A stretch of DNA of 64,000 bases from Polystyrenella longa (lineage in GTDB: Bacteria > Planctomycetota > Planctomycetia > Planctomycetales > Planctomycetaceae). The notes under the pieces were generated by a model, which ran no database searches, was not told the origin of the DNA, and saw nothing but the letters and a program-made list of their open reading frames with translations. Location: positions 4,239,001-4,303,000 of the forward strand of contig NZ_CP036281.1 in the NCBI RefSeq assembly GCF_007750395.1. The letters are read 5' to 3'. The translations under genes were made by a program, and so were the position numbers. The first letter of the stretch is position 1, and the number at the start of each line of letters is the position of its first letter. This document shows, piece after piece, positions 25,955 to 27,613 of the stretch.

Positions 25955-26986
25955 TCACACTCCCACCGCTTCTGCCATTTTGTACCCTAGTGCCCCCGCC
26001 ACTTTGCGGCATTGCACCATGAGATCGGCGAACGCCTCTGTGCTGATTGTCTGAGCGGCATCCGAAGCTGCTTCCGCTGGATTGGGATGAACTTCGATAA
26101 TTAATCCATCCGCACCCGCCGCAATTCCAGCCAATGCCATTGGTTTTACCAATGAAGCGATCCCGGTCCCGTGACTTGGATCGACGACCACGGGCAAATG
26201 TGTTCGCTCTTTCAGATAGGGAACGGTCGCCAGAGGGAGGGTGAACCGGGTGTGGGCTTCGAAAGTACGAATCCCGCGTTCGCAGAGAATGACATTCGAA
26301 TTCCCTCCATCCAGAATGTATTCCGCCGCCAGCAGGAATTCATCGATCGTGGCCGAAGGTCCTCTCTTCAACAAAACTGGCTTATCAATTTCCCCCACAG
26401 CCTGCAGCAAATGGTAATTCTGCATATTGCGAGCCCCAATCTGCAGTACATCGCTGTACTGGGCAACAAGGTCAACATGTTCGGGCGTCATGACTTCGGT
26501 AACAATAGAGAGCCCGGTCGCTTCGCGTGCGGCTGCCAGGTATTGCAGTCCCACTTCTTTTAAACCCTGGAAACTGTAAGGGGAGGTCCGAGGTTTGAAT
26601 GCCCCACCCCGGAGCGCCGTTGCCCCGGCCGCTTTTACCGCCTTGGCCGATTCCAGTATTTGTTCTTCACTTTCCACTGAACAGGGACCGGCAATCACCC
26701 CCAGGTGACCATTCCCCAATTTCAAACTTCCGGTTTCGACCACGGAATGTTCCAGTTTCGTTTCCAGACTGGCTACTTTGTAGGGGGCCAGAATCGGCAC
26801 GACTTTTTCGACTTCCGGGTAAGATTCCAACGTTTCCTGTTCTCCATTTCGTTTCTCCCCCACAGCGGCAATCACGGTACGCTCTGTCCCCACAATCACA
26901 TGAGCCTTCAGGCCCATTTCCTCCACCCTTTTAGCAATTTTAGTGACGACGGAATCTTCAATTCCTTTTTTAAGTACGACGATCAT
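25955..26986 (-). CDS. aroF: 3-deoxy-7-phosphoheptulonate (DAHP) synthase, type I beta
   Basis: 343 residues from ATG 26986, with AAGGG 7 bp upstream; the frame runs on to 27070 but that extension is not family-like. It condenses phosphoenolpyruvate with erythrose 4-phosphate, the first step of the shikimate pathway. Residues ~1-75 (MIVVLKKG through [12 protein letters not shown]) form the ferredoxin/ACT-like regulatory domain seen in the Thermotoga-type feedback-inhibited enzyme. The barrel shows [37 protein letters not shown] and VVDPSHGTG. The transcript leader upstream contains a complete attenuator with an aromatic-rich peptide, so both enzyme activity and transcription are probably controlled by aromatic amino acids. 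The gene converges on the lipoprotein gene. Confidence 0.95.
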
Positions 26987-27107: not shown

Positions 27108-27144
27108 AAAAAAGGTCCTCAAACTGGAATGCTTGAGGACCTTT
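27108..27144 (-). terminator. Attenuator terminator in the aroF leader
   Basis: On the minus strand AAAGGTCCTCAA (27144-27133) pairs perfectly with TTGAGGACCTTT (27122-27111), followed by six T (27113-27108). It lies inside the aroF leader, 122 bp before the ATG, with no complete gene upstream to terminate other than the leader peptide. Confidence 0.85.
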
Positions 27145-27185
27145 TGACTTATTATCGAGCACACGGGGTGCGGATCAGATCCTCA
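27134..27185 (-). promoter_or_regulatory. Antiterminator pairing region of the aroF attenuator
   Basis: UGAGGAUCU (27185-27177), spanning the last codons and stop of the leader peptide, can form nine pairs (one G-U) with AGGUCCUCA (27142-27134), the 5' arm of the terminator. The two structures exclude each other. A ribosome stalled on upstream aromatic codons leaves this segment free; one at the stop codon covers it. Confidence 0.65.
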
Positions 27186-27279
27186 TGCCTGAAAAACTAA
27201 ACCAGCCAAAATATCGCCATGCCGACTGACCTGTGGTCAGTTGGTTGGAGAACGACATGTTGGAGGACTGAGTTTTCAT
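27175..27279 (-). CDS. Aromatic-rich leader peptide of aroF
   Basis: 34-residue open frame, ATG 27279 to TGA 27175, ending 30 bp before the terminator stem. Residues 21-29 are WRYFGWFSF: two Trp, one Tyr and three Phe in nine residues, the three end products of the pathway that DAHP synthase opens. It has no strong ribosome-binding site; an internal ATG at residue 8 is an alternative start. Its role would be to sense charged aromatic tRNAs by ribosome stalling, as in trp and phe leaders of other bacteria. The position, content and competing RNA structures agree. Confidence 0.65.
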   Translation of the reverse strand: MKTQSSNMSFSNQLTTGQSAWRYFGWFSFSGMRI

Positions 27280-27336
27280 GAGCAGGAATAAACCTGAAGT
27301 GATTTCTGAGAAAATTGATGTACTGTTATTAACCTT

Positions 27337-27366
27337 ATCGTACGCACACCAACAACAAGCTGTCAA
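27337..27366 (-). promoter_or_regulatory. Candidate promoter of the aroF leader transcript
   Basis: On the minus strand a perfect TTGACA (27366-27361) is followed after 18 bp by TACGAT (27342-27337). Transcription would start near 27330, about 50 bp before the leader-peptide ATG. Confidence 0.5.
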
Positions 27367-27613
27367 TAACTTATTTGGCGTGGTCACGCAGATAGAGCCC
27401 AACTCTAAAAGAAGGTTCGGTCCTTTTTCAAATTTCTGACAGACTCATTTACCCTCTTTCCCCTCCCGTTTTTTCTTTTTCAAACGCTTGCAACAGTTAA
27501 CATCACTTCATTGTCGCCGTCTCAAACCTTAAAATGCGGCCAGCCAGTCCTTTTACCCATTCCCCCACTCCCTGAAGTCGCTCCGGCCGCTCCTGTTGAA
27601 ACCCTCCAGGCTC

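Follow-up and report, generated by a model that had tools for sequence, protein, structure and literature searches.

In Escherichia coli, the trpL and pheL leaders combine a short leader peptide carrying regulatory codons with alternative antiterminator and terminator structures. Each of them senses one amino acid. The trpL leader also has a protector (1:2) hairpin. The E. coli ilvGMEDA leader responds by itself to more than one end product of a branched pathway, in this case the branched-chain amino acids. In Corynebacterium glutamicum, the DAHP synthase gene is preceded by the aroR-aroF attenuator with a Phe-Tyr-Phe leader, where stalling raises transcription (Neshat et al. 2014, as described in PMC11802643 and PMC4046766). 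The predicted motif uORFC-13-1, known from 24 examples in Acholeplasma and environmental sequences, also lies before aroF and consists of a candidate uORF with at least one Phe codon and an intrinsic terminator (PMC8632094).

We analysed 64,000 nucleotides of the planctomycete Polystyrenella longa (the window; contig NZ_CP036281.1). An intergenic stretch with aroF on one side and a divergent peptide deformylase-like gene on the other was described in the initial annotation as an aromatic amino-acid attenuator. The sequence and the open reading frame listing give the following order on the minus strand: promoter-like hexamers, a 34-codon frame, a terminator and aroF. The features are:

27337..27366, minus strand: sigma-70-like promoter hexamers TTGACA and TACGAT, 18-nt spacer, 10 of 12 consensus matches
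27175..27279, minus strand: leader peptide ORF, 34 codons, MKTQSSNMSFSNQLTTGQSAWRYFGWFSFSGMRI and a stop codon, from the sequence, the ORF listing and congener comparison
27193..27219, minus strand: regulatory codons 21-29, TGG CGA TAT TTT GGC TGG TTT AGT TTT (W R Y F G W F S F)
27176..27189, minus strand: segment 2, the antiterminator 5' arm, covering leader codons 31-34 and running into the stop codon
27131..27145, minus strand: segment 3, the terminator 5' arm, which is also the antiterminator 3' arm
27110..27124, minus strand: segment 4, the terminator 3' arm; the six-T run begins within the stem and ends at 27108
25955..26986, minus strand: aroF, 3-deoxy-7-phosphoheptulonate (DAHP) synthase, type I-beta, with an N-terminal regulatory (FL) domain

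The hexamers and the frame with its WRYFGWFSF run are present as the initial annotation had described them. In a comparison with a congener, the promoter hexamers, the frame, the arm, the hairpin and the aroF ribosome-binding site stand out as conserved islands in diverged DNA. Both the DNA flanking the hexamers and the sequence past the terminator have diverged. The hexamers mark a putative promoter. A further block at 27494-27526 upstream of it (GCATTTTAAGG...GGCGACAATGAAGTG) is also conserved between the congeners and may be the promoter that serves the divergent peptide deformylase-like gene. The leader frame is presumably translated, as codons 14-33 differ between this genome and the congener by synonymous changes only. 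No clear Shine-Dalgarno sequence was seen ahead of the leader, whose start codon is uncertain: there is a second in-frame ATG at 27258, and some relatives would need GTG or TTG. The folding energy of the 196-nt leader is 5.2 sd below that of its shuffles.

The aroF product belongs to the type I-beta DAHP synthases according to curated family models (NCBIfam PRK08673, E 4.8e-146; TIGR01361, E 1.4e-116). It also has a full-length match to PDB 1rzm, the Thermotoga maritima enzyme. An AroG-type I-alpha DAHP synthase is also encoded in this genome, without such a leader, so part of the entry into the pathway is outside the control of the aroF switch. For the same reason, the idea that aroF is the sole DAHP synthase, which would have been a neat account of three-way sensing, turned out to be wrong. 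A type II DAHP synthase is absent from this genome and was found in one of 40 relatives. No aromatic leader with a terminator was seen before the AroG-type gene, pheA or the two trpE/pabB-like genes of the genome, and no such leader before hisG or ilvB.

We assessed whether the leader is conserved with upstream DNA of relatives, which came from searches at family, class and phylum level and from contigs of named genomes. All of the first 40 relatives searched gave an aroF match, a few of them a weak, kdsA-like match only. Among 169 non-redundant upstream regions, 97 contained an aromatic-rich frame, and in 93 the frame was followed by a terminator just downstream. Leader and terminator precede orthologous aroF in 90 of 135 cases. 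They precede a 50%-identical paralogue in none of 14, and these paralogue regions, taken from the same genomes, act as an internal negative control. This second I-beta DAHP synthase is found in many family members without a leader (L101-L114). Named carriers of the leader include Thalassoglobus neptunius (L149), Blastopirellula marina DSM 3645 (L188) and Botrimarina hoheduenensis (L211). What is kept is the layout: an aromatic run, a short GC-rich stretch to the end of the frame, about 30 nt, and the terminator, with a stop-to-terminator spacing of mostly 16-37 nt. The initial annotation had noticed a single case; it is real, and the device is common in the phylum. Some of the near-misses without a leader, L007 for example, may be copies that have decayed. 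On a tree of 110 aroF proteins (leader in 76 rows, absent in 34), the distribution of the leader takes 17 changes, at least 14 of them forced by supported branches, against 29 after shuffling. The tree fits an old feature with repeated loss as well as some repeated gain.

In the 93 leaders, the position and composition of the aromatic cluster are conserved, and the exact sequence is not. Trp occurs in 84 clusters, Tyr in 85, Phe in 93 and all three in 76. The device thus appears to read all three aromatic end products. Tyr-rich short leaders were also seen outside the class, in phylum-level relatives (family f44, L062-L068); several lack Trp, and the shortest has 10 residues (MYFYYNIRCS in L068).

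The terminator at 27145-27110 had been described as a 12-bp perfect hairpin with six T. The hairpin and the six T are there, but its length was understated: it has 15 pairs, one of them G-U, a loop of 6 and an energy of about -22 kcal/mol. Likewise, the proposed nine-pair antiterminator just after the aromatic codons is present and slightly longer. Segment 2 (27189-27176) and the terminator 5' arm form 11 pairs at -16.0 kcal/mol, with a z of -4.4 relative to shuffled sequence, and the two structures exclude each other. Across 92 leaders, the mean antiterminator z against their own shuffles is -2.28, and segment 2 and the leader frame overlap in 98% of them. We swapped the arms among genomes. 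Native pairs have a mean of -15.8 kcal/mol and swapped pairs -12.7, and none of 5000 permutations reached the native value; the result was again 0/5000 with 65 dissimilar representatives, although the sequences share kinship and such statistics overstate their independence. With GC- and length-matched swaps, the own arm was better in 61 of 74 cases (Wilcoxon p 1.6e-8). In both helices, both sides change, and at least two Watson-Crick pair types occur at most 5'-arm positions; at one terminator position, for example, A-U occurs 36 times, G-C 13, C-G 3 and U-A 3. These counts were taken from the best structure per sequence and lean towards pairing, whereas the swap test does not. The arms here (UGAGGA.../GGUCCUCA) and the commonest form in relatives (GGGAUUUC.../GCCCUGAAAUCC) differ in all three segments together. 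Thus, the comparison with aroF leaders of relatives that had been suggested as a check gave both a kept aromatic cluster and compensatory changes in both stems, and it strongly supports the proposed attenuation with exclusive structures and sensing of Trp, Tyr and Phe.

To model the switch, we folded the RNA up to the end of the 5' arm and represented the ribosome by a mask of 13 nt that begins at the A-site codon. Pairing is taken as an equilibrium in this model, and the following probabilities are model results. In this leader, ribosome positions at codons 21-27 give a mean probability of 0.70-0.72 that the 5' arm is paired upstream; the value drops to 0.40 at codon 29 and to 0.06-0.23 at codons 30-35. 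For the 92 leaders together, it averages 0.65 when the ribosome is at the first aromatic codon and 0.17 when it has reached the stop codon. The modelled direction is the expected one in 91 of 92: a ribosome at the aromatic codons frees the antiterminator, and a ribosome at the stop codon covers it.

Without a ribosome, the antiterminator is predicted to form with 10 of 15 expected pairs, and the 5' part of the leader has no predicted pairs to the antiterminator arm. A segment near the peptide start (GUCCUC) had been proposed to protect segment 2. Its pairing is no better than that of shuffles, with z of -0.69 here and a mean of -0.09 over the 92 leaders, and we rejected this trp-type 1:2 stem. 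Leader, terminator and antiterminator agree with the textbook trp/phe layout to which the locus had been likened, but the protector does not. Since pairing of segments 1 and 2 is unsupported, it is most likely the stop-codon ribosome sitting on segment 2, rather than an RNA hairpin, that permits termination. Since the antiterminator forms without a ribosome and the protector does not, the predicted default is readthrough.

Taken together, these data make it very probable that a ribosome-mediated transcription attenuator sets aroF transcription according to charged tRNA for Trp, Tyr and Phe. Transcription would start near 27330, and a ribosome would enter the 34-codon leader. When any of the aromatic aminoacyl-tRNAs is scarce, the ribosome would slow at codons 21-27. 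This would leave 27189-27176 free to pair with 27145-27131 once the latter is transcribed, and the antiterminator would block the terminator, allowing aroF to be transcribed. When all three charged tRNAs are ample, the ribosome would reach the stop codon and cover the end of the leader. The 5' arm would then pair with 27124-27110, and transcription would stop near 27108. With no protector hairpin present, readthrough would be expected when the leader is not translated. We infer stalling, termination and readthrough in the cell from the sequence and the folding model.

Codon usage in the leaders differs from that of the genes. Phe is encoded by TTT in 249 of 312 cases (80%) in the aromatic clusters and in 88 of 486 (18%) in aroF genes. 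Tyr is encoded by TAT in 111 of 157 cases (71%) and in 133 of 493 (27%), respectively, so that aroF genes, unlike the leaders, prefer TTC and TAC. Leaders rich in TTT and TAT include L014, L050 and L084. The other NNY codons of the same leaders are without this bias (36% T-ending versus 71%). That the regulatory codons are non-preferred ones is a further point in favour of attenuation. The bias may reflect a higher sensitivity to charging or a region kept unstructured. For Phe and Tyr, each usually served by a single isoacceptor, selective-charging theory gives no simple prediction. The theory of selective isoacceptor charging and codon sensitivity is set out in PMC1183508, where the rare codons of the E. 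coli leu leader are also discussed.

Similar leaders precede genes of other pathways. In P. longa, a Leu-rich frame, MTGIFLLNLLLLAPSGDGRS and a stop codon, lies upstream of leuA (G000:C1, about 5257250-5257671) and is followed by a terminator with a similar core. Leu-rich leaders were found upstream of 22 of 29 leuA genes of relatives, by a criterion that 7 of 135 aroF regions also pass as background. Like the E. coli leu leader, though in a different phylum, these leaders contain a Leu run enriched in rare CTA, which makes up 38 of 143 Leu codons in the leaders against 9 of 970 in genes. After swapping of leuA arms, 6 of 5000 permutations were as good as native. The same kind of evidence, less studied, supports the leuA leader as a counterpart of the aroF attenuator. 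The citramalate-synthase-like gene of P. longa (L227 / L260, G000:C1, about 2644100-2644376) has an upstream Ile-rich frame with three consecutive ATT and a terminator, and this region is a possible isoleucine attenuator. Ile/Val-rich leaders precede 12 of 30 citramalate-synthase-like genes, which we call cimA on the basis of protein resemblance. Arm swapping was less clear here (225 of 5000 permutations as good as native), and the cimA leader is probably also a counterpart, a weaker one than that of leuA. No aromatic leaders were found at leuA or cimA, and no Ile/Val leaders at aroF. Sister leaders with residues matched to their pathways, at leuA and more weakly at cimA, thus support attenuation at aroF. 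We think it likely that planctomycetes have a set of such attenuators, placed at committed steps in several amino-acid pathways (Trp/Tyr/Phe at aroF, Leu at leuA, Ile/Val at cimA), that lack protector hairpins, would hence be on by default when untranslated, and would need close coupling of transcription and translation.

Other explanations of the aroF leader were considered. The frame could encode a functional small protein, and the terminator could do no more than damp aroF constitutively. Between congeners, the C-terminal portion of the frame is indeed kept. Across genera, however, conservation is limited to the aromatic residues and to the placement of the arm over the last codons, and leader length, the N-terminus and the order of residues vary widely. 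The terminator moreover co-varies with an arm inside the frame, and the leuA and cimA leaders hold residues of their own pathways, which makes this explanation very unlikely. Attenuation could also be read out by uncharged tRNA (T-box), a ligand aptamer or an RNA-binding protein instead of a ribosome. In favour of this, the leader does contain a terminator and an alternative fold. We consider this improbable to the same degree: neither this leader nor those of six relatives matched a T-box, riboswitch or other Rfam family at gathering score, the congener alignment contains no conserved non-coding domain between promoter and frame, and the second half of the frame changes only synonymously. That the frame is decayed or an accident of a T-rich leader hardly merits belief, for while 9-residue windows with at least six F, W or Y occur in three places in the six frames of the window, the leader being one of them, the 93 non-redundant relatives, the lack of leaders before the paralogue and the compensatory changes speak against chance.

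Ribosome-mediated attenuation at this locus is, as a mechanism, classical trp/phe attenuation. It differs from trpL and pheL, which sense one amino acid each, and from ilvGMEDA in that its amino acids are aromatic; the trpL-type protector hairpin is unsupported in the planctomycete leader. A broad survey of attenuation was reportedly made by Lopatovskaya et al. in 2010. In the open literature, which leaves most subscription journals outside, we found no described case of planctomycete attenuation or leader peptides and no planctomycete version of the leu leader; an earlier in-silico mention is possible. Planctomycete leader genes are treated in PMC4833913 only with regard to reinitiation at short distances. 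The aroR-aroF attenuator, likened here by its description in the citing papers, shares an aromatic-codon leader peptide ahead of a DAHP synthase gene, but it is described from an actinobacterium with Phe-Tyr-Phe only, whereas the planctomycete leaders usually encode Trp, Tyr and Phe, precede a type I-beta enzyme and are phylum-wide. The uORFC-13-1 motif has at least one Phe codon, and the planctomycete leaders have a mixed aromatic run. To the extent that this could be checked, what is new is the phylum and the breadth of occurrence, that three aromatic amino acids are sensed jointly, that a protector is missing, and that the leaders form a linked set.

At aroF, a single leader appears to read the three end products of a branched pathway together. 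The strong preference of the leaders for TTT, TAT and CTA offers a test of codon-sensitivity theory (PMC1183508) outside model phyla. For planctomycetes, the leaders also offer a handle on regulation and might be used as amino-acid biosensors. The phylum was once proposed to separate transcription from translation (Gemmata obscuriglobus). Attenuation works only with a ribosome close behind RNA polymerase, and its conservation over much of Planctomycetota is therefore sequence evidence for tight transcription-translation coupling. This suggests that these bacteria read their amino-acid supply by ribosome-RNA polymerase coupling.
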